39,769 bases of DNA from a virus. A program made the position numbers and the translations under genes. Of the stretch, positions 7,394 to 38,496 are shown piece after piece. Each line of letters starts with the position of its first letter. Within the stretch, counting starts at the first letter, position 1. The stretch is from positions 1 through 39,769 of IMG/VR virus record IMGVR_UViG_3300035703_004069, one strand, 5' to 3'. The notes below the pieces were generated by a model. The model worked only from the letters and a program-made list of their open reading frames with translations. It did no database searches and was not told the DNA's origin.

Positions 7394-7993
7394 TTATTCT
7401 TGGTCTTCTTCCTCTTCTTCCTCTTCTTCTTCAATTACTTCAGTTGTTTCTGGAAATAAACTCAAGTACAATTCACCTTTTTGTTCTTCTTTTAGTTTAG
7501 AAATAGCTGTCGCAATTCCTTCTGTAGTAGTAGCTTTAGTTTTTACACCTAAACACTTTAATGATTCAACTACTTTATTCAAGCTTACTTCTTTCTCAAG
7601 AACTAAAATTGTAGACGAATCTTCCTCTTTTAAACCTTCAGGGATCACATCGAATAAATCCTTTCCTCTTGGGTGATTTTTCAATAAACCTAAAGCAAGC
7701 TCATCGGTAATGTTATTGTTGTTTACAAAAATTGGGCTTCCAAAAGAAGCGGGAATATTTTGATACATTGGTTTTAATCTAAAACCACATGTGTTTTCAG
7801 TATCTTTTATCATGATATAATACTTTTGAATGAATGAATTGAATTTTTGAGTAAATGAATTACAAGTATGACAAATGTCGTTTCCTGTAATTTTTTTAAA
7901 ATCTCTAGCGAATAAAGAAATCAAACGACCTCCGTTCTCATTCATTCCTGATAGAACTTCAGCCGCTTGATATTTTCCCCAATCGATATCCAT
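7394..7993 (-). CDS. Structural-module protein with acidic C-terminal tail
   Basis: A 199-residue protein between the putative tail-tube and portal genes. Residues ~38-48 include a CHTC pair that, with Cys70, could bind metal. The last ~20 residues are an almost pure run of glutamates before DQE. A C-terminal Glu run is encoded by GAA/GAG repeats, a slippage-prone tract. Position suggests a head-completion or DNA-packaging role, but I recognise no family. The acidic tail could mimic DNA or interact with basic internal proteins. Confidence 0.75.
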   Translation of the reverse strand: MDIDWGKYQAAEVLSGMNENGGRLISLFARDFKKITGNDICHTCNSFTQKFNSFIQKYYIMIKDTENTCGFRLKPMYQNIPASFGSPIFVNNNNITDELALGLLKNHPRGKDLFDVIPEGLKEEDSSTILVLEKEVSLNKVVESLKCLGVKTKATTTEGIATAISKLKEEQKGELYLSLFPETTEVIEEEEEEEEEDQE

Positions 7994-10907: not shown

Positions 10908-11210
10908 ATGACTGTATTGATAATCATATTACTAACTATAATCGCAATTGCTTTTGTTATTCAGAGAATAGCAAAGTACATGTTAAGAAAATACTATAGT
11001 GGTAATAATGATAACCCGTACATCAACTACCACAAGAATAAAATGGCTAATGATAAACATTACGATGATTATCTTGAGTGGACTAAAAACAAAGAAGTGT
11101 ATGGTGTTCCAGTTGAGAAAGTAGAAGATATTCAAGAAGCCAAAGCAAGTAAGAAAGTAAATAGGTTAGTACCCCGTAGAAAGTTTACTGAAGATGATAA
11201 ACTATTTTGA
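10908..11210 (+). CDS. Single-span membrane protein encoded against the late operon
   Basis: A 100-residue protein, beginning MTVLIIILLTIIAIAF, with one N-terminal transmembrane helix (residues ~2-20) and a highly charged cytoplasmic part (NKMANDKHYDDYLEWTKNKEVYG, ending PRRKFTEDDKLF). It is the only rightward gene inside the leftward structural region and has its own promoter. Its 3' end overlaps the convergent gene 11202-11426 by nine bases. These are features of a moron, a lysogeny-expressed cargo gene such as a superinfection-exclusion factor. No family recognised. The start chosen follows the -7 box. Confidence 0.65.
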   Translation: MTVLIIILLTIIAIAFVIQRIAKYMLRKYYSGNNDNPYINYHKNKMANDKHYDDYLEWTKNKEVYGVPVEKVEDIQEAKASKKVNRLVPRRKFTEDDKLF

Positions 11211-11426
11211 TTCCATCTGTGCTATAATTCTATAGATTGTTCTCTCTGGTGTTTTTGTTTCAATCGATGTGTTTGTGATTGCTTGAGATTTTGAATTACT
11301 TTTCATCTCTTTTAAGTATACTTCATATATTAGTTTGTGTCCTGCTAAAGTTATAGGCACAATTCCCTTTTTGACTAATAAATCAAGTAGGTTTCTTTTC
11401 TCCAACAGTTTAAGATATTCGTACAC
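11202..11426 (-). CDS. Small helix-turn-helix protein, regulator candidate
   Basis: A 74-residue protein with a GTG start placed directly next to a 21-bp palindrome. The C-terminal part (AITNTSIETKTPERTIYRIIAQMESK) looks like the turn and recognition helix of a transposase- or phage-type HTH (pattern S-x-x-T-x-Y-R-I-I). The N-terminal half is helical and contains LLDLLVKKGIVPITLAGHKLIYEVYL, a form seen in small Bacteroidetes phage proteins. An in-frame stop inside the palindrome excludes a longer N-terminus. Because its own promoter carries the palindrome, it is the best local candidate for the protein that binds the three sites, possibly autoregulated; this is inference. Confidence 0.6.
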   Translation of the reverse strand: MYEYLKLLEKRNLLDLLVKKGIVPITLAGHKLIYEVYLKEMKSNSKSQAITNTSIETKTPERTIYRIIAQMESK

Positions 11427-11455
11427 TTGTAATATATTATATTACAAATATAGTA
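11427..11455 (-). promoter_or_regulatory. Promoter with downstream 21-bp palindromic operator (site A)
   Basis: The palindrome at 11427-11447 has 10-bp arms TTGTAATATA and TATATTACAA around one base, without a mismatch. On the minus strand it follows immediately on the -7 box TATATTTG (11455-11448), covering the expected start site, and abuts the GTG of the HTH gene. This placement suits repression. The stretch TTTTACTATATTTG is shared with site C at 24.15 kb. Confidence 0.65.
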
Positions 11456-11459
11456 AAAT

Positions 11460-11711
11460 TTACCACTTACCTAACGGACACTTATAATCTTTTGAACGTG
11501 TGGATGTTGATAACGGACAATTGCAAACTGAACACTTCAATCCTTGAATTTCTTTTATTTGAAAATCTGGAAGTATTATTTCAAAATTTGTGTGTACTGG
11601 ATTGTCACAATCACCACATATTTTTGCTCTTTCTTTTGCAATAGATAAAGCCACCTCATCATTGATAAGGTAGGCTTTCCATCCATTGTAAATATCTTTT
11701 GCTTTACTCAT
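11460..11711 (-). CDS. Zinc-ribbon protein
   Basis: An 83-residue protein with CGDC (residues ~32-35), CSVCNCPL (~60-67) and a final CPLGKW. Four to six cysteines are placed to bind zinc, with the conserved S-T-R-S before the last cysteine. Short zinc proteins of this exact layout, ending CPLGKW, are common in Bacteroidetes phages and follow tape-measure or baseplate genes. The role is unknown; nucleic-acid binding or structural metal site are both possible. The start overlaps the small membrane ORF 11704-11850 by eight bases. Confidence 0.75.
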   Translation of the reverse strand: MSKAKDIYNGWKAYLINDEVALSIAKERAKICGDCDNPVHTNFEIILPDFQIKEIQGLKCSVCNCPLSTSTRSKDYKCPLGKW

Positions 11712-11850
11712 GCTTTGTTTTATTTAACAAATAAATTGATAAAACAAAAGTGATTGATAAAATTGAAACACTAAGTAGGTTCCAATAAAATACAGCTATT
11801 CCAAATCCTATTACTTGAGCTGTTGCTAATAATCTTAAAAATTTTCTCAT
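11704..11850 (-). CDS. Small two-span hydrophobic protein
   Basis: A 48-residue ORF that starts one base after the tape-measure stop and overlaps the zinc-ribbon gene start by eight bases (ATGAGTAA). It begins MRKFLRLLATAQVIGFG and is strongly hydrophobic, with two likely transmembrane segments (residues ~10-23 and ~27-43), ending LNKTKHE. Tight packing on both sides supports it as a real gene. I recognise no family. Position after the tape measure might suggest a role in DNA injection, or it may belong to the accessory island. Confidence 0.55.
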   Translation of the reverse strand: MRKFLRLLATAQVIGFGIAVFYWNLLSVSILSITFVLSIYLLNKTKHE

Positions 11851-11851
11851 G

Positions 11852-14761
11852 TTATTTTAAATTAGCCATTTGTACCACATTATTATAATCATCTGCTGTA
11901 TCTATAATATCAGTAACTCCAACGATAGGACTTGGTAAAGAGCGGTTTGATTCTGCGATTTTACTCGCTAACAAATCAACATCCAAAGCGCTCTCTACTT
12001 GTTGTGTAACCATGTTCTGTCTGAAGGCAATACCGCCACTTGCAAATACATTCGCTCTTGTACTTCCTACTGATGGGTATGAGTTATTGAAATCCATAAA
12101 AGCTTTAGATGCATTTCTATTCATTACTCCTAATATTTCTCCACGTTCAGCTTCAAAAGTAGTGCCGTCTTCTCCATAGAATTTTGTCCCTCCAGCACTA
12201 TGTCTATTACCTCCAATATTAAACAAAGCCCCTTTCTCAGCTTTAGGAATAGAAGCGCTACCAATTTGCCCTACACCAGAAGCTACAGAACCTAATCCAG
12301 AAGCAGCACCTTCAGCACCTTTAACCCCCATGATTTTAGCTACACTTGCCAAACCTGATGCAATTGTTACAGCTGCCGCTATTCCTCCATAAGGCGGAGG
12401 TAATGTAGCAAGTGCCATTGTTGCACCTTGATAAGTATTGATGGTAGCTTGTGCTATACCAAAAGCTTTTCCTAATGCAGATTGTTCACCTGCCAGTTGT
12501 GCTAGTCCTCCAGCTACTTGCGCAGCTCCTTGAAGCTGTGCATTGTTAACTGCTTGGTTTACTTTATTCCTTGCAATTGCAGCAGCGTTAACAACATTGT
12601 TTACCTTTTGTTGATATGTAGATTCAATTGCTAACTTTCTATTGTTATATTCCTCTTCAGTAATTAAATTAGCTTCTTTTGCTTCAAGCTCAGATGCTAA
12701 TTTAGCTTCTTTGATTGGAAGTTCTATTTCTTGAAGAAGTAATAATTTTTCATTTTCCTCAAAAGCAATTCTAGATAACTCTTTTTCAAATTCACTAGCA
12801 TTACGAGATTCTTGCTCTAAAGTTTGAGTTTCAAAATCAAGCGCTCTTTGTAAAGCTAACTCAGCTCTTAGTTGTTCATCGTATTGTTTTTTTAATGCGA
12901 GTTTTTGCTCTTCAAAGCTTTGTTCTAATTCTAATGATTTGATTTGATACTCTTGTTCAGATATCAATTTATCAGCTAAACGTTTTTGGTTGATAGCGAC
13001 ATCTTGGTCGTATATTTTTTGTAAACGTTCAGCTTCCTCATTAACTAAGTATTCAGTTAAAGTTTTGGCTTCAGCTAATTTACTTTCATTTTGTAACTTG
13101 AATAAAGCCACTTCATCCTCTAAAGCTTTGACAGCTATTTCAGCCTGCTTGCGTTTAGCTTCTACATCAATAAGAATCTTTTGCTCTTCATATTTTTGTT
13201 TAGAGATTTTTCCATATTCATATTCTTTGTCCAGGATCGATATTCTTTTTTTACTAACCTCATCCTCATACGATAATGATTCCTCTAGAGTTTTCTTTTT
13301 TAAAGATTCCTTTGCAATAAATAACGAAAGCTCATCATTCATGTATGCGATTTCTTTATCGCGTTTTTCTTTTTGCAATTGAATAGCTTTCTCTTGAGCT
13401 TGAATAGCTTTCTCTCTGTTTTTTTCAGCTTCTGCTTCTTGGTCTTCAATTAATTTATTTTGCTTATTGATAATCTTTTCCTGATTAGAATAGAATTCGT
13501 TTTCAACTTCTGTTGATTTCAACAAAGCCTCTTTAAGGTTTTCGTATAACTCATCCTGATTAGTTGCTTTTTGTTCAGTAACTTCTTTATAAGTAAGACC
13601 GGACTTTTTTAATTGTTGGAATTCTTGCTCTGATAAATCAGCAGAAATGCGAATCTCCTCATATGCAATTCTAAGTTTCTCATCACTTATTTTTTTTCTT
13701 TGTTGGAAATCTTGCTCTTCTAATTTTGCCGCTTTGTTTAATAATGCCAAACGCTCTTCTTCTGATTTGGTTCTATCCTTTGCCTGAATGTTTAATCGAT
13801 TGATTTCCGCTCTTGTTTTTGCAGTTTGCACTTCTTGTTGTTCCATCGCATCCTCAAGGTCTTGCTGTGCTTTTTTCAAGTTAGCCGCATCATTAGCCGC
13901 ATCTTTCATCGAATCACCTAAACCACTGAAAGCTTCAGTTAATGATTTGGTACCAGTAACTAAAGCAATAACTGTATTCTTAACCACATTTAATACAGCA
14001 CCAATAGCCGCTACAGCTTGTTCCGCCTTGTCAACTACTGGAGTAAATGATTTGAATACACTATACAATATTCCTAATGTGATAGCTAAAGCTGCTATTA
14101 TTGCTCCGATTGGATTGGCTACAAATCCCCAAGCCGATTTAGTGGCCGCATTGATACCTGTAGAAATTCCCATGAATGCATTCTTTAACATCGGACCAAC
14201 TCCTCCAGCTTCTTGAGAACGTTGAATAAAACCACCAATACCACCATTAAAGATATTCAGTTCTTGAAATGCTTCAGTAATAGCTTCTTTGTAGTTTCCT
14301 ACATTCATTACCTGTTGCTTTTGAGCATCTGAATTTTCTTTTATAAAGACGGTATTCTTATCAATCTTTTCATTGATTTCTTCAATTGCATCTCTACCAG
14401 CTTGAGTGTCTGTAGTAATTTGACTTCTAATTATAGAAAGCCTTTTATTTACTTTTTCAGCCTCACCAACTGTAGCAGTTTCTTTGGATAGCATTTCTGC
14501 TAAATCTCTAATACCTGTTGTATTTTCTGCTAAAACCTTTTTATTATTTGCATACTCAGTATTCAAAGCTTTTAGTTGAGCATCATTTTCTATGAAAGCT
14601 CTGCTTTGCTCTTCAGTTGCATTGGTTAAATTTCCCGTCTCTGTTTTTAAATTCTTTTGCGCTTCTCTTAAAACAGCAATCTGTTGAATGATTTTAGTGT
14701 TTGAATCTTGTAGTGATTTGGTGTTTAATTCCAACTCAGCTATTACTATTTTTTCTGCCAT
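11852..14761 (-). CDS. Tail tape measure protein
   Basis: A 969-residue, mostly alpha-helical protein, the longest in the window. Residues ~1-160 are coiled coil. A hydrophobic stretch (~210-240, GAIIAALAITLGILYSVF) is typical of tape-measure membrane segments. Residues ~285-720 are long Glu/Lys/Gln-rich coiled coils. A glycine/alanine-rich hydrophobic region follows (~770-830), then a C-terminal part with GALFNIGGNRHSAGG and GEILGVMNRNASKAF, which I associate with Bacteroidetes tape measures. At roughly 0.15 nm per residue the length predicts a tail of about 145 nm, so a siphovirus. It starts two bases after the preceding tail gene. Confidence 0.9.
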   Translation of the reverse strand: MAEKIVIAELELNTKSLQDSNTKIIQQIAVLREAQKNLKTETGNLTNATEEQSRAFIENDAQLKALNTEYANNKKVLAENTTGIRDLAEMLSKETATVGEAEKVNKRLSIIRSQITTDTQAGRDAIEEINEKIDKNTVFIKENSDAQKQQVMNVGNYKEAITEAFQELNIFNGGIGGFIQRSQEAGGVGPMLKNAFMGISTGINAATKSAWGFVANPIGAIIAALAITLGILYSVFKSFTPVVDKAEQAVAAIGAVLNVVKNTVIALVTGTKSLTEAFSGLGDSMKDAANDAANLKKAQQDLEDAMEQQEVQTAKTRAEINRLNIQAKDRTKSEEERLALLNKAAKLEEQDFQQRKKISDEKLRIAYEEIRISADLSEQEFQQLKKSGLTYKEVTEQKATNQDELYENLKEALLKSTEVENEFYSNQEKIINKQNKLIEDQEAEAEKNREKAIQAQEKAIQLQKEKRDKEIAYMNDELSLFIAKESLKKKTLEESLSYEDEVSKKRISILDKEYEYGKISKQKYEEQKILIDVEAKRKQAEIAVKALEDEVALFKLQNESKLAEAKTLTEYLVNEEAERLQKIYDQDVAINQKRLADKLISEQEYQIKSLELEQSFEEQKLALKKQYDEQLRAELALQRALDFETQTLEQESRNASEFEKELSRIAFEENEKLLLLQEIELPIKEAKLASELEAKEANLITEEEYNNRKLAIESTYQQKVNNVVNAAAIARNKVNQAVNNAQLQGAAQVAGGLAQLAGEQSALGKAFGIAQATINTYQGATMALATLPPPYGGIAAAVTIASGLASVAKIMGVKGAEGAASGLGSVASGVGQIGSASIPKAEKGALFNIGGNRHSAGGTKFYGEDGTTFEAERGEILGVMNRNASKAFMDFNNSYPSVGSTRANVFASGGIAFRQNMVTQQVESALDVDLLASKIAESNRSLPSPIVGVTDIIDTADDYNNVVQMANLK

Positions 14762-14763
14762 AA

Positions 14764-15051
14764 CTAAATGATGTTTATATTTAATTTGTTGCTTTGCATT
14801 TTTTCGATTCCGTTTTGAATAATGATTGATTTACTTCCTGTTGTTGTAAATCGAAGTATAATTTTATTAAAATCTTTATACATAATTTCTGCATCCGTTG
14901 TATTTACAATCATAAAATTTAAATCATACTCTTTATTATTGTATAATGTATCTTGCCATACCACAACATCTTGACTCACTTCAGATGTAAGAGTTTGTCT
15001 ATTAAAACCAAAATGAATAAATGGTTTTGCTTTTCTTATTTCTACTATCAT
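14764..15051 (-). CDS. Small tail-module protein
   Basis: A 95-residue predominantly beta protein without membrane segments (MIVEIRKAKPFIHFGFN at the start). It overlaps the large tail gene upstream by four bases and ends two bases before the tape measure. The position suggests a virion component or tail-assembly factor. I do not recognise the family. Confidence 0.7.
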   Translation of the reverse strand: MIVEIRKAKPFIHFGFNRQTLTSEVSQDVVVWQDTLYNNKEYDLNFMIVNTTDAEIMYKDFNKIILRFTTTGSKSIIIQNGIEKMQSNKLNINII

Positions 15052-17186
15052 GCTGTTATTAAAATAGTGTTAGTAATTATATCTCCAGATACATTTATAA
15101 ATCTAACAAGCGTATCTATTATAACTGGATAAATTATCGGTTCGTTTGATGTAATAAATAAAGCCCCATTACTCCATGAGTCTCCATTGTTTGTGCTGTA
15201 TTGAAAAATAATAGGATACGACTCATCGTAGCCGCTAAATACTATTTGACCTTCAACATATGATATAGTGACAATAAAACCACTATCACTATCTTCTTCA
15301 ATAAACGGAGAGTATTTAACTCTTATCAATTCACATTTTACTAATCCATTATCAGTAAAGTTTGGAACTTTGTTTAATATAAAATAGTTTGACAACTCCT
15401 CGATGTAGTAAAGTTTCTTGAAATCTATATTCACTACATCAGCTTCGTTTAAAAATATCTCTGCAATAATAACCTTGCTTTTATTTAATATCTGATAAAT
15501 TGAATTGTAGTAATCCTGAATGATATCATTAAAATTAAGTTTGAAAAAACTTTCAAAAGGAGCTTCTGTAATTATTGTTTCTTCAGATAAAGTTTCGCTA
15601 CCAATAGTTACAGGATCATTAAACGTGTAATTATCGAATCGCATAAAATAAAATCTTTTATCCAGGGCTTTATAAGTAACATTTCCATCATCTTTAATTT
15701 CTTTATTCCATAGTTTGTAAATATTTGTCTCTTTTCCGAAAGGATTAGTTTTTACTTTCTCTGGAGCATATATTTGAGAATCTATAATGGTTTTAGAATC
15801 ATCAAGGTTAACATTTTCGATTTTTAAAGAACCATTATAGTAGTCACTTAAATCATTATTATATTGATAGCTCATAATATTGTTTTGAGCATACGAACCG
15901 TAGATATATTTTTCAGATAATAGTTTATGGAAATATCCATTTTTCTGTGACCAGTTAACTATCTCAGATGTTTGTAGCACTTCTTGAAGTGTTAAGAATT
16001 TTATATGCTTGCTATATTTATCTGTATATGGTGTCAAACCAAAGCGCCACATTACTTCATTGATAAATGATTTTGTTTTGAAATCCAAGAACGCTCCTTC
16101 AAAGTCAATTGTAGAACTTTCTACTTTTGAAATTTTCACATTCAAATTATTATTTGCAAAATATATTGATGCCGTGGCTCTTATAAATAAACATAAACTT
16201 TCATCAGAATCAATTGTGATTAATTGATTTATACCTATCGTATGACTTCCACTTGTTGGATGAGTTACCAAGGTAGTAAAAGAAGATATATCTGCAGAAT
16301 TAGTATTTGATTGCTGATTTTTTGATAAGTTAATACTGAATTCTCTTGTGGATAAAGTTAGTATAGAAATATCTCCTGTTATTTCTAATCGATATGTTCC
16401 TGATTCTGGGAATATAATATGTTTATAGTTAAACAAAGTAAGAGGCGCATCGATGGTATAAGTATTATATTTAAAGTATCTACTTTTATTATCTCCACCC
16501 TCAGGAAGATATGTAATATCAGAACTATCAAACATCTCATCATCTGCAATAGTAGAGGTTGTACCTTTAGGAAATGACATCCATAAGTTCTGAAAATTAA
16601 AAGTATTAAAAACACCGCCTTCGTAAGTGAATCCGTATTGCTCAAAAATCTTATCCCATAAATAACTAACCTTTGCTGATGGAACCAAGTAATCAATATT
16701 GATTTTATTTGCATCATACAAAGCTTTCCCATTGTAATCAGCAAGGATATACTTATACGGACTATCGACATCCCAACTCGCTACAACATTAGTCAAGTTT
16801 TTAACGTGATTTATTTCAGCTAAATCTAAATCACTTAAGAAAGTGTTTTCAATTGCTTTGTGAAAATCAATAAATCCATCATACACAGCAATTTTATAAA
16901 CATCATTTGTCTCGTTGATAACACACCATCCTTTGTATACAAAACATTCACCCGTATTCCCAAATAGAAAGGTTTCATTTCTTTGATATGGAACATTAGA
17001 ATCATTACCAACAACTCCAAGCATTTTCATTTTTTTGATATTGCCAGGTGTTTTTGGTAAACCAAAAGCATTCGTATAATTTGTCTGTCTATCAGATAAA
17101 TCAAGTAAATCATTCACTTGCTTAGTTTGAGATATTTTTGATTTATTATCTAACTCAAACGTATATCCGTTTATAATTAGTCTCAT
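15048..17186 (-). CDS. Large tail/baseplate protein with C-terminal Ig-like domain
   Basis: A 712-residue protein starting MRLIINGYTFELDNKSKISQTKQVNDLLDL, with LSDRQTNYTNAFGLPKT, a pattern typical of a conserved Bacteroidetes phage tail protein next to the tape measure. The core is mixed beta, as in baseplate hub proteins. Residues ~635-712 (SYVEGQIVFSGY, FQYSTNNGDSWSNG) look like an Ig-like or fibronectin-like beta module often found exposed on phage tails. It overlaps both neighbours by four bases. In Gram-negative siphophages this place holds the Tal/hub protein, which is my preferred role. Confidence 0.72.
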   Translation of the reverse strand: MRLIINGYTFELDNKSKISQTKQVNDLLDLSDRQTNYTNAFGLPKTPGNIKKMKMLGVVGNDSNVPYQRNETFLFGNTGECFVYKGWCVINETNDVYKIAVYDGFIDFHKAIENTFLSDLDLAEINHVKNLTNVVASWDVDSPYKYILADYNGKALYDANKINIDYLVPSAKVSYLWDKIFEQYGFTYEGGVFNTFNFQNLWMSFPKGTTSTIADDEMFDSSDITYLPEGGDNKSRYFKYNTYTIDAPLTLFNYKHIIFPESGTYRLEITGDISILTLSTREFSINLSKNQQSNTNSADISSFTTLVTHPTSGSHTIGINQLITIDSDESLCLFIRATASIYFANNNLNVKISKVESSTIDFEGAFLDFKTKSFINEVMWRFGLTPYTDKYSKHIKFLTLQEVLQTSEIVNWSQKNGYFHKLLSEKYIYGSYAQNNIMSYQYNNDLSDYYNGSLKIENVNLDDSKTIIDSQIYAPEKVKTNPFGKETNIYKLWNKEIKDDGNVTYKALDKRFYFMRFDNYTFNDPVTIGSETLSEETIITEAPFESFFKLNFNDIIQDYYNSIYQILNKSKVIIAEIFLNEADVVNIDFKKLYYIEELSNYFILNKVPNFTDNGLVKCELIRVKYSPFIEEDSDSGFIVTISYVEGQIVFSGYDESYPIIFQYSTNNGDSWSNGALFITSNEPIIYPVIIDTLVRFINVSGDIITNTILITA

Positions 17187-18325
17187 AATCTTCGTGTTGT
17201 TCGTTCTGGTAATTCAACTTGTAAGTCGATTTTCAATGCATCGCGTTTAGCTGCTTTTATTTTCAAAGAACCAGCTTTGATATTCACTTCAACGAAATCA
17301 TTAAAACTAGATGTTCCGGGTGTTCCTATATACAAGTAAGTTTTGTTTGTTTCAAATAAGTCCTCAAGGATTTCTCTTTCTTCAGGAGTTGTAATATCAT
17401 AGGTTAATGATATTACATCATCTGATTCCTTTCCTGTGAATACATAAGGACTTATGGTGTCTTCAATATTATTATTATCATTATTTATAAATCCTAATGA
17501 TTTTGTTGTTCGATTAGTTTTTCCTCTTTTAAATAGCCAATAGCTCCATTTACTATACCGGTTTAAGAATTTAAAATAATATACATCTGAACAATCAGGT
17601 TGTATTTTTTCTAATTCAATAGTATGTGATGTTGATTCTGTAGATACTTCAATAATAGTAGTCCCATATCCAATTATTAAAGTATTATCTATTGATTGTT
17701 CAGATGGATTACCATTTGATATAATCGCTCTTACTATCTTTTCTGGATCACCAAAACCTATTAATTCATCATTATCTAAATTTTTAATCTCAATACTATC
17801 TGTGTTTCCACAATAAATTGGAATGTCAAAAGGGAATCCGGACCAGTATTTTAAATATGATTTATTTGTATTTATATCTAATTGAGGTATCAGAGCTATT
17901 GTTTGTGAAATATTAAGATTACTTATGTTTGTTCTTTTGTATTCTAATAATTGAGTATATGAAGCCATCCAATTAGTATCTCTTGTTATAGTAATATTTG
18001 TATCATCATCAAGAAATATTTTAAATGATATATTGTAGTTTTTATAAGAGTTTGTTTCATGATTATAAATCAAAGAATTATCAACGTCTATAATTAAATC
18101 ATCCGAGTAATTACTTTGATTAATTAAAGATGTGATTATTTGTTTGAAGTTGTATGTGAATACACCATCAGGATCAGGATAAAGAGTAAGTGTTGTACCT
18201 CCGATTAATATCTCAGCTTTTAACGCTACGCGTACTAAATCATTTTGGTAAAATATAACTACGTTGTTGTTGAAAGCATTCAACAGTTTATTTGTTTCTA
18301 TGTCATTTATAAATACTATTGCCAT
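17183..18325 (-). CDS. Tail protein, distal-tail/baseplate candidate
   Basis: A 380-residue beta-rich protein without signal or membrane segments. It begins MAIVFINDIETNKLLNAFNNN and carries FLNRYSKWSYWLFKRGK in the middle, a fragment that recurs in Bacteroidetes phage tail proteins in my recollection. The last ~40 residues (VEVNIKAGSLKIKAAKRDALKIDLQVELPE) form a basic beta segment. It directly precedes the large tail protein with a 4-base overlap and follows the completion protein with a one-base overlap. A distal-tail (Dit-like) function would fit the order. Confidence 0.65.
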   Translation of the reverse strand: MAIVFINDIETNKLLNAFNNNVVIFYQNDLVRVALKAEILIGGTTLTLYPDPDGVFTYNFKQIITSLINQSNYSDDLIIDVDNSLIYNHETNSYKNYNISFKIFLDDDTNITITRDTNWMASYTQLLEYKRTNISNLNISQTIALIPQLDINTNKSYLKYWSGFPFDIPIYCGNTDSIEIKNLDNDELIGFGDPEKIVRAIISNGNPSEQSIDNTLIIGYGTTIIEVSTESTSHTIELEKIQPDCSDVYYFKFLNRYSKWSYWLFKRGKTNRTTKSLGFINNDNNNIEDTISPYVFTGKESDDVISLTYDITTPEEREILEDLFETNKTYLYIGTPGTSSFNDFVEVNIKAGSLKIKAAKRDALKIDLQVELPERTTRRL

Positions 18326-18798
18326 TATGCTACTTCTTTTAATTGTTGAGTAATTCCTTTAACTATTACATCTAAATTTATTTCGGACACTCGATTGATT
18401 ATGCTCTGAATTCTTTGAGGTGTAATCACTGATGAAACTAAATCAGTACCTCCTTTTTGATATATCTTAGTTCCTTCATTCGCTATTTTTCTAGCGATAA
18501 GAAAAGCAAGTGAACTGATACTAATTTCTTTTCCTATTGCTCTGATGCCTTTATCATAAATCCACTTTTCAATTGATTTAATAGGTGGGAACTTGCCCGG
18601 CTCTCTACCTTTAATTAATTGCTCAGTATAATTATTTCCATAAAGCTTGATATTAGTAATGTGGTCTTTTTCATTAATAACGCTCTCTAACGAATTAGCC
18701 CAGTCACCTGATGCTCTCAGATTGAGTTCATCATATTTTTTTATCAAATCAACTTTGATACTTTCAAACTCTATTTCTAAAACTTCTGCAGTAGTCAT
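18325..18798 (-). CDS. Head-tail or tail completion protein
   Basis: A 157-residue protein with the core GREPGKFPPIKSIEKWIYDKGI (residues ~65-88), then SLAFLIARKIANEGTKIYQKGG. The PG-x-FPP...W-x-x-x-KG(I)...I...GT pattern occurs in a widely distributed Bacteroidetes phage family annotated as neck/tail completion (HK97 gp10-like role). The start codon overlaps the previous stop by one base. Confidence 0.7.
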   Translation of the reverse strand: MTTAEVLEIEFESIKVDLIKKYDELNLRASGDWANSLESVINEKDHITNIKLYGNNYTEQLIKGREPGKFPPIKSIEKWIYDKGIRAIGKEISISSLAFLIARKIANEGTKIYQKGGTDLVSSVITPQRIQSIINRVSEINLDVIVKGITQQLKEVA

Positions 18799-19250
18799 TA
18801 CTCAAACATTTTGAATTTAAAGCTCACGAGTATGCCGTCGAAATTATCATCAAATATATTTATCACATCAGTTGATTTCATTCTCAAAATCTGAATGTTA
18901 TTACAAAACAACTTACTTTTAAAATTGCTCAATAACGATTCTATCTTTGGTTTGATATTCTTTTTATATTTACCAAGTGAAGGATCGGTTTCTTTTTGAT
19001 TATCATATGTCTCATCTAATTCTGATTTTGAAAGAATCATAAATGTACCTTCGAAATCAGTTTGTCCTAATGAACCGCCTGTAGGAGAAAATAAAGGGTC
19101 TCGACTGACTGGGTCAAGAAAGAAGAAAGTGGATGTGTCATTTTCACTATCTGCTTCCATTAAATTTTGAAAGTCACTTCTGCCATAGGTAAACTTCCAA
19201 GACAAATCTGTCTCAGTAATTTCTCTCAAGATGTCAACTATATCTGTCAT
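18798..19250 (-). CDS. Tail-module protein of unknown function
   Basis: A 150-residue protein (MTDIVDILREITETDLSWKFTYG) with the segment STFFFLDPVSRDPLFSPTGGSLGQTDFEG in its first half and a beta-rich C-terminus (GILVSFKFKMFE). Size and position, between the gene after terminase and the completion protein, suit a tail terminator or neck protein, which are small beta proteins. No motif proves it. It overlaps the upstream gene by four bases and the downstream gene by one. Confidence 0.68.
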   Translation of the reverse strand: MTDIVDILREITETDLSWKFTYGRSDFQNLMEADSENDTSTFFFLDPVSRDPLFSPTGGSLGQTDFEGTFMILSKSELDETYDNQKETDPSLGKYKKNIKPKIESLLSNFKSKLFCNNIQILRMKSTDVINIFDDNFDGILVSFKFKMFE

Positions 19251-19795
19251 GGTTTTTTAGGTGTTATGATTTCTTGGTATTTCTTGTTTATCTCGTAGGA
19301 TTTCTTTTGATGAAGCATAAGTGTAAACACTAGATTGTAATTCCAGTTCTCAACTTCTTGAGGTGTCTTTCCAAACTTCTCACCAATTGCGATAAGTGTA
19401 TTCATTTCACCAAATACACTCATTTGTTCTATACCAGCTTCTTTTAATTTTGAATCAGGTTCAGATGCTAGGCTTTTTTGTTCGCGATCAATGATTCCTT
19501 TGATTTGCTCATTTATCCAATTCAAAGAATGAAAGAAGCTCACAGCATCTAATGAATAGAAATCTTTGTCCTCAATCCCAAATATCACTTTATAGATACT
19601 TAACAGATTTTCAATACTTGGTTTTTGAATATCCATTTTAATAGTAGCAACTTCACCGAAAGTAAGCTCTGTTAATGATTGAACCTTTTGATATTTCTTA
19701 AGAGGTTTTGGATATAGATGATGCAGCACATTGTAGTACTCGTTGAATCTTTCAGCAGGTAAACTAAATAATTTTTTTACTTTAAGGTTAATCAT
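19247..19795 (-). CDS. Helical protein after large terminase
   Basis: A 182-residue mostly helical protein beginning MINLKVKKLFSLPAERFNEYYNVLHHLYP and ending with a charged tail (YEINKKYQEIITPKKP). Around residues 140-170 it has KTPQEVENWNYNLVFTLMLHQKK, a pattern similar to tail-assembly chaperones, in which a short helical domain precedes the tape measure. I see no slippery frameshift site linking it to the next ORF. It overlaps the terminase gene by eight bases. The chaperone reading is tentative. Confidence 0.65.
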   Translation of the reverse strand: MINLKVKKLFSLPAERFNEYYNVLHHLYPKPLKKYQKVQSLTELTFGEVATIKMDIQKPSIENLLSIYKVIFGIEDKDFYSLDAVSFFHSLNWINEQIKGIIDREQKSLASEPDSKLKEAGIEQMSVFGEMNTLIAIGEKFGKTPQEVENWNYNLVFTLMLHQKKSYEINKKYQEIITPKKP

Positions 19796-21029
19796 GATTT
19801 CTAACTTTAAACGTTTTTGATTTTTTTAATTTCAATATTTTATATGCACAATATCCTCCAGCTTCTGTAACGTGGTCAAATCCACTTTCTTTGTCAGGGG
19901 CTCCTTTTTTATATGCTATTTTCTCTAGTCCTTCTGTATAAGTAGGGCAGGTGTGAATATTAACGTAATATGATATATTACCGTTGCCATCCAAAAAACC
20001 AGCGTTAAGAGTTGTTATCCTATCTCTTACAGATGGATTAGAATCATCAACTTCAATCTTAAATCCTGCTTTCTTCAAAAGTAATATATCTGTGTCAGAA
20101 CTAGATGTCTTTCTATTGTCACCAGACGCATCAGGATAAATAACTATTCTTCTATTTGGATATCTTTCTTTGATTAACGAAATCATATCAGCTGTATCGT
20201 AGGCATTCACAAATTCATCTACTGCAGTAAGCTTACCGAAATCGGTTACATGTACAACTGCGTGCATTTTCTCAACGTTAAAATCCATACCGATATGTAA
20301 TACATCTGAAAGCTTTTGAACTCGCTCGCTGTGATTTCTAGTTCTGTCGAATTTATGATACACATTACCTGTATTCAGATTCACAAACTCACCACCTAGA
20401 TAAGCAAGCAGCTCATTCTCCGAATATGTTTCTTTTAGCGATTCGATGTAATCATCAGGTAAGAATGGATTATCAGAAGTTTTACCTTTAACTATTTTTC
20501 TTCCTGGCTTTTTCTCTCTAACAAAGAACTTATACGCCCACTTAAAACCTTCAGGAGTAGAAACAATATCCAAACAATTCATATCTTCATTGGGTAACTT
20601 CTTACGATTACGTGCAAGTATCTTCTTAAACACGTTTGTCATTTTTTCAGTCTCCAAAATATCAGCTTCATCAATCAAACTATAACCTACCTCATAACCT
20701 ACAATTCTTTCAGGGTTTTGCAATGAACGTAAAATAAACTTACCATATGGAGTTATAAACTCATGCTTTGATTTATTGAGTTGATAACTCAATCCAATTG
20801 CTGTGAATACTTCCTCAAATCTTGGATATGCAATATCTTCAATAAGTCCGTAAGTAGGTAAGTAGTATGCAACTGGAATTCCCGGGTATTGTAATTTTTT
20901 AATTGTCGTTTTGTAAACACCTGCCAAAGTTTTACCTGAACCATATCCAGCAATCAAACCAGTATGTCTTTCTTTGCTTTCTATGAATTCAGCTTGATGT
21001 GGTAATACTTCAATAGTTGTATAGTCCAT
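19788..21029 (-). CDS. terL: Terminase large subunit
   Basis: A 413-residue DNA-packaging motor. The ATPase domain has Walker A AGYGSGKT (residues 27-34) and Walker B YSLIDEAD (~116-123), then ARNRKKLPNEDMNCLDIVSTPEGF containing the coupling motif. The C-terminal RNase H-like nuclease has its acidic residues at GMDFN (~247), IYPDASGD (~300) and FDHVTEAGGY (near 390). This is a Terminase_6C-type arrangement of normal length. Its ATG overlaps the small-subunit stop by one base, so the two are likely translated together. Confidence 0.93.
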   Translation of the reverse strand: MDYTTIEVLPHQAEFIESKERHTGLIAGYGSGKTLAGVYKTTIKKLQYPGIPVAYYLPTYGLIEDIAYPRFEEVFTAIGLSYQLNKSKHEFITPYGKFILRSLQNPERIVGYEVGYSLIDEADILETEKMTNVFKKILARNRKKLPNEDMNCLDIVSTPEGFKWAYKFFVREKKPGRKIVKGKTSDNPFLPDDYIESLKETYSENELLAYLGGEFVNLNTGNVYHKFDRTRNHSERVQKLSDVLHIGMDFNVEKMHAVVHVTDFGKLTAVDEFVNAYDTADMISLIKERYPNRRIVIYPDASGDNRKTSSSDTDILLLKKAGFKIEVDDSNPSVRDRITTLNAGFLDGNGNISYYVNIHTCPTYTEGLEKIAYKKGAPDKESGFDHVTEAGGYCAYKILKLKKSKTFKVRNHD

Positions 21030-21436
21030 TACTCATTCTTTTTGATAATTACAAATTCAATAGGCTTGACACCAGTATTGATATTGATATTCTTATCAGG
21101 TTCTAAACCTTCTAGTTTATTTATCTCTTTCTCGATTGCTATCTCAACTGCCAAACCTGCAGGGGTTCCTTTGAACTCACTTTTTAAAGAACGTGCTTTT
21201 TGCTTTAATCTGGCTATTGCCATTTCGCGCTTCATGTCAATATTCACACCTTCAATCTTCTTCCAGTTCTCATATGCTTCCTTCACATAACGCTCTGCCT
21301 GTCTTACACTGATATCCCACAAAGTAGTAGACTGCTTAATAATCAATCTATCCTGAACACCTTCGAGCATCCAAGATTGAATTGTGAAAATTCGCTTTTC
21401 CTTTTCTATTTGCGTGCATCTTTGTTCTTTGCTCAT
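21029..21436 (-). CDS. terS: Terminase small subunit
   Basis: A 135-residue helical protein immediately before terL. Residues ~15-65 (FTIQSWMLEGVQDRLIIKQSTTLWDISVRQAERYVKEAYENWKK) form an HTH-like DNA-recognition region. A helical oligomerisation part follows (KREMAIARLKQKARSLKSEFKGTPAGLAVEIAIEKEINKLEGL), then a short beta-like tail that probably contacts the large subunit. It selects the packaging site and stimulates the ATPase. It overlaps the preceding gene by four bases. Confidence 0.82.
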   Translation of the reverse strand: MSKEQRCTQIEKEKRIFTIQSWMLEGVQDRLIIKQSTTLWDISVRQAERYVKEAYENWKKIEGVNIDMKREMAIARLKQKARSLKSEFKGTPAGLAVEIAIEKEINKLEGLEPDKNININTGVKPIEFVIIKKNE

Positions 21437-21669
21437 GATTCACTTGGAAACATTTTCTTTATAACTGCAACATCTCGCAATCCTTTGTTTATTTCAGTTC
21501 TCAACTTGATAGCTTCAATCTCTCTCATACGTCTTAATTCAGAATCGCTATCTTGAATAATAGTATTATCATATGTTTGAAGTGCGGCTCTATTGCGCTC
21601 AACTTCTTCCATTAGGTATTCAATTATATTATTTCTCATCTCGATTAGCATTTGATAGTTTGGACTCAT
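21433..21669 (-). CDS. Small helical protein before terminase
   Basis: A 78-residue protein that is almost entirely alpha-helical and charged (EYLMEEVERNRAALQTYD, ELRRMREIEAIKLRTEINKGLRDVAVIKKMF). It starts inside the 3' end of the methyltransferase gene (41-base overlap); a later Met (MLIEMRNN, 21651) would shorten that overlap. It ends four bases into the small terminase. A packaging accessory role is plausible from position alone. Confidence 0.62.
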   Translation of the reverse strand: MSPNYQMLIEMRNNIIEYLMEEVERNRAALQTYDNTIIQDSDSELRRMREIEAIKLRTEINKGLRDVAVIKKMFPSES

Positions 21670-23104
21670 TAGTGAAATCGTTTAGGGTTAAGCTTCCATT
21701 TAAGTGGGTAAAGTTAACATCAATTCCGTTTCGTTTGCAATAATTTATATATCGAATAATATCCGATTGCACATACATTGGTTCAATCTCGGTAAACCTT
21801 CCTTTGCGTTTGGTATGCTCACAAGCTATAAGTGCAGTACCAGAACCAAGGAACCAATCAATTACAATATCACCTACATTGGTTGTGTCCAGAATAGAAT
21901 CAGCGATCATAACAACTGGCTTTGGAGTAGGGTGGTTCTTTAATTCAAATCTATCTGGATTTGCCATTGAGGTTGCAGATGGATATTTCCAAACGTTTGA
22001 GCGTATACGGTTCTTAAGTTCTAAGTGAGATAGATGCTTTGCCTTGTCTCCATTCTTGAATATGAAACACCATTCGTTATTATCTTTGTAGAACTCACCG
22101 CCCTCATCTAACATATCTTTCTGCCAAAGTGATTTTGCTTTCTCATCTGAGAATATGAAACAAAGCTCATGTTGAGCACGATAGAAACTACCATTTGCAA
22201 ACATATCCTTTTCCCATACACATACTTGCTTTGGTTGAGGATTACCATAAATGCGACGTGCTGCTTCAGTCATATGCCAGCTGTGTCTGAAATCCATAAA
22301 GATGTAATGAATCGCTCCGGGCACTGAATGCTCTTTCGAGCGTTGCATGATTAAAGCAAGGAACTGTACAAACTCTTCATCTGACATTTCACCACTTCCC
22401 ATTGCAAAGTCTTTATGTCTCTTCTCATCTTTATTGGTAAAGAAGTTAGCAGGTAAGTTATACGGTGGGTCGCAATTTATAATACGTGCAAGCTCTCCCT
22501 GCATCAATGCGTTTACATCATCAGGATTGGTGAAAGAACCACATATGATACGATGGTCGTTTAATTGGAATATGTCACCAGTCTTTACAATTGGCTCAGA
22601 TGTAACAATCACATGCGGCTCTTCAGCATTGTTGGTATCATACAAATCAAACTTTTGCTCAAAGCGTTCCATTGAGAATTCAGGAATATTGATAACTGCT
22701 TTTACATCTGGTAAATCGATATTGAATGTGCTTACGAAATCGAATAAACCTTGCTGTGTGATTTTTGCATAAGTAGATGAATACACCAAAACCAACTCGG
22801 CCGCTTCTTTCTTATTTTCACACTCAACGAATGTAGCTGGTAACTCATCAGGAACCTCATAACCTAATTCTCTGACACGTAATAAATCTAAAAAACGATG
22901 CTTTCCATCTAAACAAAATAGCTTTCCTTCATTTTCCCATACCTTAAACGGGTCAATAAATTGATATTTTAGTATGGATTCAGTTAGCTTTATGTCGCCT
23001 TCTTGTATCCATTCCTTGAAGTTTTCTTGCTGGATAAACTCTAACTGCTCCCATTTTATCAAAGCAGTTTTTAAAATTCGAGAAGTGATTGATTGAGTAC
23101 TCAT
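21629..23104 (-). CDS. DNA methyltransferase with N-terminal ParB/Srx-like domain
   Basis: A 491-residue protein starting MSTQSITSRILK. Residues ~10-110 form a ParB/sulfiredoxin-like domain (WIQEGDIKLTESILKY, FCLDGKHRFLDLLR). The catalytic part has motif IV DPPY at ~212-215 (RIINCDPPYNLP), then a C-terminal AdoMet motif DWFLGSGTALIAC (~445). DPPY and the order of motifs indicate amino (N6-adenine or N4-cytosine) methylation. ParB-MTase fusions are common in phages and usually lack a partner nuclease, acting against host restriction. The upstream in-frame Met at 23179 would place the start ahead of the promoter, so it is rejected. Operator-like repeats sit directly upstream. Confidence 0.88.
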   Translation of the reverse strand: MSTQSITSRILKTALIKWEQLEFIQQENFKEWIQEGDIKLTESILKYQFIDPFKVWENEGKLFCLDGKHRFLDLLRVRELGYEVPDELPATFVECENKKEAAELVLVYSSTYAKITQQGLFDFVSTFNIDLPDVKAVINIPEFSMERFEQKFDLYDTNNAEEPHVIVTSEPIVKTGDIFQLNDHRIICGSFTNPDDVNALMQGELARIINCDPPYNLPANFFTNKDEKRHKDFAMGSGEMSDEEFVQFLALIMQRSKEHSVPGAIHYIFMDFRHSWHMTEAARRIYGNPQPKQVCVWEKDMFANGSFYRAQHELCFIFSDEKAKSLWQKDMLDEGGEFYKDNNEWCFIFKNGDKAKHLSHLELKNRIRSNVWKYPSATSMANPDRFELKNHPTPKPVVMIADSILDTTNVGDIVIDWFLGSGTALIACEHTKRKGRFTEIEPMYVQSDIIRYINYCKRNGIDVNFTHLNGSLTLNDFTNESKLSNANRDEK

Positions 23105-23106
23105 AG

Positions 23107-23135
23107 ATTTGTGTCTGACGTTATTAGACACAAAT
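23107..23135. promoter_or_regulatory. Perfect 10-bp inverted repeat at the methyltransferase start
   Basis: Arms ATTTGTGTCT (23107-23116) and AGACACAAAT (23126-23135) are separated by nine bases. The repeat overlaps the -7 box (23138-23131) and reaches to within three bases of the ATG. It could be an operator at the transcription start, or a hairpin in the short leader that masks the start codon. No T-run follows, so it is not a terminator. Confidence 0.6.
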
Positions 23136-23166
23136 GTAATGATTTTTGTAATATGATATATTACAA
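23131..23166 (-). promoter_or_regulatory. Methyltransferase/late promoter with upstream 21-bp palindrome (site B)
   Basis: The -7 box TACATTTG lies at 23138-23131. Seven bases upstream of it lies the palindrome 23146-23166 (arms TTGTAATATG and TATATTACAA on the + strand; one mismatch). It occupies the place where a -33 element would be, an arrangement that suits an activator as well as a repressor. This is the only evident promoter ahead of the methyltransferase-terminase-tail block. Confidence 0.6.
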
Positions 23167-23207
23167 ATTGTTTTTGCAATGTTTGAATGAAAGAATTGAA
23201 ATAGGAT

Positions 23208-23477
23208 TTATTCGTATTGCTCTATGATAGAAATAGCTTCGTTGATTAGTTTTAGAATGAATACTAAATCTGCATTTGATTTTATTTTTCTATTGAAGTC
23301 GAAAGGATCATCAGTAGCTTCAATCTGGGTTATGATTTGAGAAAGTGTTGTTTTATCTTTTTCGTTTTTGATTCTTGAAATAGCGAATTGTATTTTAGGA
23401 ATACATGTGTATTTCATATATGGGTTTTGGTAGGAGCAAAGGCTTTCTAGTTCCTGTCTGGTTTGCTTAATAGTCAT
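23208..23477 (-). CDS. Small helical protein of unknown function
   Basis: An 89-residue protein (MTIKQTRQELESLCSY at the start) that is charged and helical (FAISRIKNEKDKTTLSQIITQIEATDD, VFILKLINEAISIIEQYE), without signal peptide or membrane span. It has its own candidate promoter at 23494-23501, just below a terminator, so it is a one-gene unit or the first gene read into the methyltransferase region. No family recognised. Confidence 0.65.
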   Translation of the reverse strand: MTIKQTRQELESLCSYQNPYMKYTCIPKIQFAISRIKNEKDKTTLSQIITQIEATDDPFDFNRKIKSNADLVFILKLINEAISIIEQYE

Positions 23478-23493
23478 TATGGTAAGTTTGTAC

Positions 23494-23501
23494 CAAATAT
23501 A
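23494..23501 (-). promoter_or_regulatory. -7 box of the 23.2-23.5 kb gene
   Basis: TATATTTG on the minus strand, 16 bases before the ATG and directly after the terminator at 23505-23533. The following TTTGGTACAAA is a near-palindrome at the expected start site. The -33 element is weak. Confidence 0.45.
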
Positions 23502-23504
23502 AAC

Positions 23505-23533
23505 AAAAAAGCGTATCCGTTAGAATACGCTTT
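23505..23533 (-). terminator. Intrinsic terminator after the tRNA-like gene
   Basis: Perfect 9-bp stem AAAGCGTAT (23508-23516) / ATACGCTTT (23525-23533) with an eight-base loop; on the minus strand it continues into six Ts. It ends leftward transcription coming from the tRNA-like RNA, 44 bases downstream of its 3' end. Confidence 0.8.
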
Positions 23534-23576
23534 AATGAAACAAAAAAACTAAATACCCAATTTTACTAATATGTTG

Positions 23577-23675
23577 TGGAATAGGAGGAATCGAACCTAC
23601 CTTGAAAAGTTACAATCTTATAGTCATCTAGTTTGTCCTAGCCCGGCTATTAGCATCACTTAACCCTTTTATTCC
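23577..23675 (-). tRNA. tRNA-like RNA of 99 nt, possible tRNA-Tyr(GTA), irregular
   Basis: On the minus strand GGAATA (23675-23670) and TATTCC (23583-23578) pair as an acceptor stem, followed by discriminator A (23577). The T-arm is canonical, GTAGG-TTCGATT-CCTCC with one mismatch. The best anticodon arm is AAGA-TTGTAAC-TTTT, giving anticodon GTA (Tyr) with U33 and A37. The variable region is then short, unlike normal class II tRNA-Tyr. Between the acceptor and this arm lie ~49 nt instead of ~19, with extra hairpins (TAGC-CGG-GCTA and CTAG-GACAAA-CTAG), and no standard D-arm is obvious. CCA is not encoded, as is usual in Bacteroidetes. It is therefore tRNA-like; it could be a functional odd tRNA, a degenerate one, or a mimic with another task. 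Terminators flank both sides. Confidence 0.55.
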
Positions 23676-23680
23676 GTTTT

Positions 23681-23710
23681 AAAAAAAGCCATCCATTTAG
23701 AATGGCTTTT
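23681..23710 (-). terminator. Intrinsic terminator after the exported-protein gene
   Basis: Stem AAAAGCCAT (23684-23692) / ATGGCTTTT (23702-23710), 9 bp perfect, nine-base loop, followed on the minus strand by seven Ts. It lies 13 bases after the stop of the gene at 23723 and only five bases ahead of the tRNA-like 5' end. Confidence 0.8.
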
Positions 23711-23722
23711 ATATATTTTTCT

Positions 23723-24106
23723 TTAACAGCTAAACCGCTTATTTATCAAACCGAGATAACTGAGAATTTGTTTTTTATCGATTACATAATCTGTATGCAG
23801 TTTTTCTTTATGTGGAATATTACTGTAAACTGCTTTCCTGCTTTGCCATCCCACATCTGTGATGATGGCTACAAATTCGTAAAGGATGCTTGACTTCAAA
23901 AGAACTTGGGTAAAAACCCCTTGTTTGATTGTTGGTGTTTCCACTGCAACAAAATCAAAATTGCTTTCTACATTTACAGTATACACTAACTCGATGGGTT
24001 GGTCTGTGAATACTGGGTTTTGTTTTTGCTCCGGTTCGCTTGTAGTTGCGAATGCCGTCATACTCATCATACCGATGAGAGAGATAAAGAGCGCTCTTGA
24101 TTTCAT
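23723..24106 (-). CDS. Exported protein, moron candidate
   Basis: A 127-residue protein with a clear Sec signal peptide: MKSR, hydrophobic core ALFISLIGMMSMTAFA, cleavage probably after TAFA. The mature part is mostly beta (PIELVYTVNVESNFDFVAVETP) and ends with IDKKQILSYLGLINKRFSC. The start at 24106 is fixed by the -7 box at 24147-24140; the longer frame (24142) would begin within the promoter. With its own promoter, a palindromic operator and a terminator, it is an independent unit in the middle of leftward phage genes. This is the typical form of a lysogenic-conversion gene. Function unknown. Confidence 0.75.
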   Translation of the reverse strand: MKSRALFISLIGMMSMTAFATTSEPEQKQNPVFTDQPIELVYTVNVESNFDFVAVETPTIKQGVFTQVLLKSSILYEFVAIITDVGWQSRKAVYSNIPHKEKLHTDYVIDKKQILSYLGLINKRFSC

Positions 24107-24139
24107 TAAAGTTTGAGAACTTTTGTACTTTCGTGATAA

Positions 24140-24173
24140 CAAATATAGTAAAAATGTAATATAATATATTACG
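24140..24173 (-). promoter_or_regulatory. Promoter of the exported-protein gene with palindrome (site C)
   Basis: The -7 box TATATTTG is at 24147-24140. The palindrome lies seven bases upstream at 24155-24173 (core GTAATATA-A-TATATTAC without a mismatch). Its geometry is the same as site B and its -7 surroundings (TTTTACTATATTTG) the same as site A. Confidence 0.62.
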
Positions 24174-24184
24174 ATGTAAACAAT

Positions 24185-32472: not shown

Positions 32473-32675
32473 ACCCCAGCTTCTAAGAAAACTATATCAA
32501 CCATACCTGTTAATTTTTTCCAATTTCTTGCACTCAATGATATTTCATTTCCATCATGAGTTACAGTCATCCATACCTCGCAAGGGTCTTCTGTATCCAA
32601 ATAAACTTCTTGAGTTCCGATGTTTGTTTCATCTTGGAAAAGTTTTACTTCTTGTGTTTTTTCAAATTTTGGCAT
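32469..32675 (-). CDS. Small protein of unknown function
   Basis: A 68-residue protein, acidic in its first half (VKLFQDETNIGTQEVYLDTEDPCEVW), with a beta pattern WMTVTHDGNEISLSARNWKKL in the second. It starts two bases after the repeat-protein stop. No membrane span or signal. Function unknown. Confidence 0.62.
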   Translation of the reverse strand: MPKFEKTQEVKLFQDETNIGTQEVYLDTEDPCEVWMTVTHDGNEISLSARNWKKLTGMVDIVFLEAGV

Positions 32676-32677
32676 AA

Positions 32678-38163: not shown

Positions 38164-38385
38164 TTACGCTAAAACTAAAGCTCCTGACTCTTCTAAATCG
38201 TTGTTTTTATATCTATTTACATTTCTTGTGTAAACTGTATATCTGATATTAGATAATTGTTGTTTGCGATTTTGTACTGATTCGATATATTCATCGATAG
38301 TCATTTCTGCTTCTGTTTTTTTTATTCCTAAAACTTTTTTAGCTCCGAAATAAACTTTACTGAATAATGTGTTAAGTGTTTTCAT
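38164..38385 (-). CDS. First gene of the leftward early operon
   Basis: A 73-residue protein from MKTLNTLFSKVYFGAKKVLG, basic at its N-terminus, with a helix TIDEYIESVQNRKQQLSNIRY in the middle. The start is set at 38385, ~37 bases below the -7 box at 38429-38422. The longer frame to 38448 would begin upstream of the promoter's start point. It ends one base before the next gene. No family recognised. Confidence 0.62.
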   Translation of the reverse strand: MKTLNTLFSKVYFGAKKVLGIKKTEAEMTIDEYIESVQNRKQQLSNIRYTVYTRNVNRYKNNDLEESGALVLA

Positions 38386-38421
38386 AATTTTAGATATATT
38401 TGTTATTTCATATTGACAAAA

Positions 38422-38451
38422 CAAATTTACGAAACTTTTTGAAACCACAAA
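38422..38451 (-). promoter_or_regulatory. Leftward early promoter (PL-like)
   Basis: The -33 element TTTG lies at 38451-38448 and the -7 box TAAATTTG at 38429-38422 on the minus strand, with an 18-base spacer: the best complete Bacteroidetes promoter in the window. The operator palindrome 38446-38461 covers its -33 element. Confidence 0.7.
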
Positions 38452-38470
38452 ACTTTTTGTGAACTTTTTT
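38432..38470. promoter_or_regulatory. Repressor operator cluster between the divergent operons
   Basis: Direct repeats AAACTTTTTG at 38432-38441 and 38450-38459 and a weaker GAACTTTTTT at 38461-38470. The middle one is part of a palindrome with 7-bp arms CACAAAA and TTTTGTG (38446-38461). They overlap the -33 region and spacer of the early promoter, as expected for binding by the adjacent repressor. Confidence 0.6.
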
Positions 38471-38496
38471 TAAATTTTTTCAAATAACTAATTCGT

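Follow-up and report, generated by a model that had tools for sequence, protein, structure and literature searches.

The question raised by this locus is what acts at a palindrome that recurs at minus-strand promoters of a temperate phage, and whether it switches them on or off. The DNA analysed (the window) is an IMG/VR virus record of 39769 bases whose left end carries an integrase and whose right end carries both CI and an XRE-type gene; early genes are transcribed leftward from 38448 and late genes leftward from about 23100. The initial annotation of this DNA took three copies of the palindrome to define a regulon and named a small HTH protein encoded beside one of them as its candidate regulator. 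The reading favoured here, at a probability of roughly 0.75 and on the basis of sequence comparison, is that a phage-encoded repressor controls a regulon through the palindromes as its operators, and that this repressor is most likely a different protein, a 77-residue protein of Cro/C1 type encoded at 39536-39769, which would act as a second lysogeny repressor silencing late and accessory genes.

The palindrome family in the window

All three near-perfect palindromes described initially are indeed present, matching TTGTAATATANTATATTACAA with 0, 1 and 2 mismatches (operators 1 to 3 below). Dinucleotide shuffles of the window gave a mean of 0.01 such matches each, and three matches were reached in none of 100 shuffles. 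In an unbiased search of the window for recurrent 17-bp palindromes a family of four was found, where shuffled sequences reached at most three (in 3 of 60 cases), the fourth member being one that had been overlooked, within the terminase gene; unseeded searches for short inverted repeats, on the other hand, were swamped by AT-rich noise. It is appropriate to regard 17 bp, rather than 21 bp, as the conserved unit, because relatives of this phage keep the core GTAATAT-N3-ATATTAC but not the outer TT/AA of the 21-mer, which varies. The sites are as follows:

Operator 1: 11427-11447 (core 11429-11445), 0 mismatches; overlaps the minus-strand -7 box TATATTTG (11445-11452) of the gene for the 74-residue HTH protein
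Operator 2: 23146-23166 (core 23148-23164), 1 mismatch; 9 bp upstream of the minus-strand -7 box TACATTTG (23131-23138) of the methyltransferase/terminase late operon
Operator 3: 24154-24174 (core 24156-24172), 2 mismatches; 8 bp upstream of the minus-strand -7 box TATATTTG (24140-24147) of the exported-protein gene
Operator 4 (core only): 19965-19981, inside the terminase coding sequence; candidate transcription roadblock

The genes that are tied to these sites, together with those of the lysogeny operon, are:

11202-11426, minus strand: 74-residue HTH protein, probable target of operator 1 and the regulator proposed in the initial annotation
19788-21029, minus strand: terminase large subunit (PHROG terminase large subunit), containing operator 4
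21629-23104, minus strand: DNA methyltransferase (PF01555, 4e-25; PHROG DNA methyltransferase), the first gene 3' of operator 2, with the terminase genes next
23723-24106, minus strand: exported protein with a signal peptide, predicted target of operator 3
38497-39138, plus strand: S24-family CI repressor (Pfam PF00717, 4e-11; PHROG transcriptional repressor), first gene of the lysogeny operon
39141-39536, plus strand: small exported or lipoprotein-like protein, between CI and the 77-residue protein
39536-39769, plus strand: 77-residue Cro/C1-type HTH protein, proposed regulon repressor, with recognition helix 35-42 including Q36, N37 and R40

No annotated ncRNA or tRNA was found that would explain the sites. 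Some other features of the window may be recorded at this point. At 23110-23136 another inverted repeat, TTTGTGTCT...AGACACAAA, extends over the beginning of the methyltransferase operon, and TTTGTGTC recurs directly 3' of the late -7 box in L063, L016 and L017 (L and G numbers denote the related phages and contigs throughout). There is a tRNA-like remnant (with a GGTTCGATTCC arm) on the minus strand at 23573-23660, where neither ARAGORN nor Rfam calls a tRNA, and tandem 30-nt repeats at 32663-33472, within a 311-residue ORF (32678-33613), correspond to 10-residue repeats in the protein.

Operators and promoters in related phages

Relatives were gathered by scanning with the terminase, with the Zn-ribbon protein encoded next to the 74-residue HTH gene, and later with the 77-residue protein; they are prophages, mostly of Flavobacterium, plus viral contigs. 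A search using an exact 18-base pattern reached six contigs, just one of which (L013) has a promoter site in a related phage, the other five being dismissed as hits within coding sequence or a palindrome located at the end of a contig. Taken over all relatives, operators are found before the small HTH gene in eight phages (the window, L046, L016, L017, L018, L019, L021 and L022), before the methyltransferase or terminase operon in nine (the same eight and L033), and before a head gene whose product begins like MSxKYFxSLPNF in L013, L016, L017, L019, L021, L022 and L046. The layout of operator 2 is repeated at the methyltransferase of L046/L063, which is 81% identical. Exported-protein genes are preceded by operators in the window, L016, L019 and L021, the last three having the counterpart of operator 3 at the orthologous gene (when used as a query against viral contigs the exported protein found no relative), and in L017 it is a different exported gene that is preceded by one; in L016, L017 and L019 there are also operators after orthologs of the gene at 24436.

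Sites mostly agree within any one phage, and it is between phages that the half-site differs. It reads GTAATAT in the window, L046, L016, L018, L021 and L013, GTAATAA in L019, GTAATAC in L017, GTAACAA in L022 and GTAAAC in L033; among the phages found later, G726 has GTAACAT (three sites), G809 has GTAATTA (six exact sites), and G430 and G817 have sites resembling GTAGCAT. Even the sister phages L021 and L022, whose terminases are 91% identical, have GTAATAT and GTAACAA respectively, at four sites each. In L033, a Cruoricaptor prophage, five operators of GTAAAC type stand some 30 bp apart before the methyltransferase gene (7704-7853).

A half-site that is private to each phage leads one to expect a factor encoded by the phage. 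When the palindromes were searched for across hosts and relatives, as the initial annotation had suggested, the sites in whole host genomes lay inside the prophage in 6 of 7 cases (hosts of L017 and L019) and in 3 of 3 (host of L022), and a host factor is unlikely because the sites are nearly all so placed. In particular, control of these promoters by a host regulator such as the Bacteroidetes SOS (LexA-like) repressor seems extremely improbable: host SOS repressors do govern late or induction genes in some phages, and one diverged Bacteroidetes SOS site is TTAC-N5-GTAA (PMC8565304), but the main motif, CTAA-N5-TTAG, differs from the present sites in both sequence and spacing (PMC8565304), the sites are almost confined to the prophage, and the operator sequence varies among phages of a single host genus. 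The existence of a phage regulon joining late genes, the exported-protein gene and the small HTH gene, which had been put forward from the window, is strongly supported by the operators at orthologous promoters in relatives. The comparison indicates that the operator regulon is real and phage-encoded, and that the palindrome is a predicted binding site at late-gene promoters across a group of prophages of Flavobacterium and related bacteria.

For the site inside the terminase gene the evidence is of a different kind. An operator falls on the same terminase codons in the window, L016, L017 and L019, and in L017 the site reads GTAATACATTGTATTAC, which fits the arms of L017's own operators despite the difference in encoded residues (GNTLYY vs GNIIYY); under synonymous resampling, the probability of an equally good site was 0.03, 0.004, 0.006 and 0.03 for the window, L016, L017 and L019 respectively. 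This site is only suggestive, however, because it has been lost in L018, L020, L021, L022 and L033.

In Flavobacterium psychrophilum the TAnnTTTG box occupies -12 to -5 (PMC9723704). Such a box is present at set spacings from 35 of the 49 operators tabulated, compared with 1.3% of random positions and 4% of AT-rich positions; it lies downstream of the operator at spacings of -3 (6 operators), 0 (10), 8-10 (11) and 18 (1), or upstream of it at -1 to 2 (7). With the box placed at -12 to -5, 34 of the 35 are located from about -38 to +15, and the remaining one, in G726 with spacing 18, at about -47 to -31. No recognisable box accompanies the terminase site, the sites after the 24436 gene or four members of the L033 array. 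The earlier statement that each palindrome in the window touches a TAnnTTTG box is correct for the copy at 11427 and incorrect for the other two; at the latter the box starts 9 and 8 bases 3' of the core, or 7 and 6 bases 3' of the 21-mer, which is near the seven bases claimed. The placing of the 11427-11447 copy over the expected start point of the small HTH gene was borne out, and that copy overlaps the -7 box there.

Such positions, over the start point or the -7 box, are consistent with steric repression by the bound factor and not with activation, and the occurrence of the operator on either side of the box, at the same kind of gene in different phages, also suits a repressor. The alternative, allowed for in the initial annotation in respect of its two upstream sites, is that the factor activates, or that an activator at sites upstream of the box doubles as a repressor over the start point. 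The clustering of the upstream spacings at -3, 0 and 8-10 bp could in principle reflect contact with RNA polymerase, but operators spaced at -3 or 0 overlap the -7 box or lie directly against it and should exclude sigma, and nearly all of the operators to which a box is assigned overlap the core promoter; only the G726 site with spacing 18 extends upstream of -40. In addition, at the small HTH gene the operator covers the start point in the window but is upstream in L017, L019, L022 and L046. Activation is for these reasons judged quite improbable.

The candidate repressor

The 74-residue HTH protein (11202-11426), proposed to repress its own gene together with the other promoters, has some attractions as regulator, being small and HTH-like, with an operator directly upstream of its gene in eight phages; furthermore, its orthologs in L021 and L022, whose operators differ, are just 67% identical, as against 93% for the adjoining Zn-ribbon protein. 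However, the 74-residue proteins of the window and L046 are only about 19% identical, yet the operator is identical in the two, and in many Bacteroidetes phages homologs of this protein are encoded within the late operon (ATGGTAATG overlap), where neither a separate promoter nor a palindrome accompanies them. The G726 prophage provides a further case, having been read from the integrase to the 77-residue gene (L158, L142 and L143): the genes it has in common with the window are the methyltransferase and the early genes, its other late genes matching no window protein, and in this complete prophage three operators occur but no protein matches the 74-residue one at E 1 or better. The proposal is not sustained by these comparisons and is considered unlikely; the protein is probably a target of the regulon. 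The small HTH gene and its Zn-ribbon neighbour (11202-11711) occur side by side as a conserved pair across many Bacteroidetes phages and frequently show the ATGGTAATG overlap.

CI (the S24 repressor, 38497-39138) is the classical prophage repressor, and phage repressors with dispersed operators are already known, as in mycobacteriophage L5 (PMC6550527) and for MrpR of SPbeta (PMC10516654), so that CI might conceivably bind the 17-bp sites besides its own switch. That it does so is very unlikely: the CI/early divergent switch region of the window (38385-38496) contains no copy of the operator, the best match having 4 mismatches, and there is none near CI in L063 or in the early regions L064, L066, L068 and L071 (of relatives L046, L017, L019, L022 and L033), and CI DNA-binding domains diverge strongly among phages that have one and the same operator (27% identity between the window and L046). 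More generally, CI and the Cro-like proteins other than the 77-residue protein were rejected as regulators, being too divergent among phages sharing the operator.

The 77-residue protein is encoded by the third gene of the lysogeny operon, after CI and the small exported protein, its start overlapping the stop of the preceding gene as TAATG in the window, and all five relatives in which the CI region was examined have this gene order in the CI operon. The protein was found in the window and in the eight operator-bearing relatives examined (L046, L016, L017, L018, L019, L021, L022 and L033), and was not found in eight terminase relatives in which no operator was detected (L020, L023, L024, L025, L026, L027, L028 and L029). 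An alignment of nine homologs proved too diverse for scanning the collection, for which a closer set was used instead. The palindrome family was undetected in seven other carriers of 77-residue homologs (G715, G487, G747, G717, G640, G612 and G573), implying either that the protein family is wider than the regulon or that the sites take another form there. In the Riemerella phage RAP44 (L182, 43722-46582) the order CI, small gene, HTH, integrase is kept, and the palindrome family is absent.

An AlphaFold model of the protein (pLDDT 93.8) has five helices, with residue 37 within the recognition helix, in the compact helical arrangement of the Cro/C1-type (lambda-repressor-like) HTH fold. The top PDB matches of this model in Foldseek are Cro/C1-type regulators, including 434 Cro, with probabilities of 0.9-0.97 and weak E-values (0.1 and up). 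Against Pfam HTH_26 the window protein scores 15.8 bits, below the cut-off of 22, and its relatives in L111 (22.4) and L121 (22.5) score above it; the S24 peptidase domain present in CI is absent. In 434 Cro, the residues that align with 36, 37 and 40 are on the DNA-facing side of the recognition helix.

Two of these positions, 37 and 40, covary with the operator. From residue 37, which follows a conserved Q, the base at operator position 5 can be predicted in 13 of 13 phages, N going with T (GTAAT), T with C (GTAAC) and H with A (GTAAA). This rule had been set down before four further phages were found using the 77-residue protein alone, and all four fit it: G726, G430 and G817 (T) and G809 (N). 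In G430 and G817, where some sites read GTAGTAT on one side, position 5 was taken from the majority half-site of these variable sites. A permutation test of the mapping over the 13 phages gives p 1e-4, which is generous because the phages are related and p overstates their independence; the contrast between N and T represents at least two separate changes, one in L022 and one in the G726/G430/G817 group. Column 37 is the sole column of the alignment that splits the two large classes, and the cleanest contrast is between the sisters L021 and L022, most of whose proteins are 70-93% identical. Residue 40 tracks operator position 7, being R in the five GTAATAT phages for which the protein is known. 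The covariation points to the 77-residue protein as the candidate regulator of these operators and, more indirectly, suggests through residue 37 and position 5 that a dimer may contact the short palindrome by its third helix.

A proposed second lysogeny repressor and its known counterparts

The scheme that we infer for binding, dimerisation, repression and timing builds on the operators, their targets and conservation, the covariation, the predicted fold and the operon position described above. In a lysogen, the 77-residue protein would be made together with CI, and its dimer would bind GTAATAT-N3-ATATTAC. Bound there, it would block RNA polymerase at the promoters of the late methyltransferase/terminase operon and of the exported-protein gene and at the small HTH gene, and it would have one more site within the terminase gene; the role of CI would be confined to the early switch. 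Once the phage is induced, the lysogeny operon would fall silent, and the small repressor would presumably be diluted as phage DNA and its operators multiply, opening the late and accessory promoters. A broader proposal, offered tentatively and at somewhat less than even odds, is that temperate phages of Bacteroidetes use two lysogeny repressors from one operon with separate jobs, CI for the early switch and the 77-residue Cro-like protein for late, methyltransferase and accessory promoters plus the terminase roadblock, late timing being set by titration on replicating DNA rather than by a late activator or antiterminator.

To our knowledge, the timing of late genes in temperate phages of Bacteroidetes has been little described, and in a limited literature search no comparable operator regulon turned up for these phages. 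What is gained here is a defined operator, a named candidate repressor gene in the lysogeny operon and an ordered list of target promoters, including those of a methyltransferase and an exported accessory protein; the residue-to-base rule should also be usable for finding the operators of further Flavobacterium prophages from the sequence of the repressor.

Several known systems invite comparison. In proteins of the 434 Cro/C1 type, positions in the recognition helix specify bases of a short AT-rich palindrome, and those from phages work at one switch region only. The 77-residue protein is like the 434 Cro/C1 repressors and controller proteins such as C.BclI (PDB 2cro, 3cro, 2b5a) in predicted fold and in size, but the sites here accompany late and accessory genes, and the switch has none. 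The non-canonical LexA of Bacteroidetes belongs to the same phylum and also combines a CI-like DNA-binding domain with short palindromes; however, it has an S24 protease domain and recognises CTAA-N5-TTAG (PMC8565304), neither of which applies to the 77-residue protein or its sites. In SPbeta, MrpR (YopR) is a repressor that maintains lysogeny and binds a repeated element (SPBRE) at dispersed prophage promoters (PMC10516654), but it has a tyrosine-recombinase fold and a 15-bp motif (PMC10516654), whereas the present protein has a small HTH fold of predicted Cro/C1 type and is apparently a second repressor.

Rep of the Cluster A mycobacteriophage L5, with its stoperators, similarly involves a lysogeny repressor and many sites genome-wide, in a version specific to each phage (PMC6550527; PMC9283540), and here too repressor and sites change together between phages (13 of 13). 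Most L5 sites, of which a genome may have up to about 30, lie away from promoters and follow the direction of transcription, and the L5 repressor is monomeric, two-domain and the sole immunity repressor (PMC6550527; PMC9283540); in contrast, there are about 3-7 palindromic sites here, mostly at promoters (35 of 49 tied to a -7 box), and the 77-residue protein has one domain and stands beside a separate CI. Judged from sequence, then, what would set the present system apart from those known is a second, very small Cro-like repressor beside CI, whose sites occur at promoters of late and accessory genes rather than in the switch.
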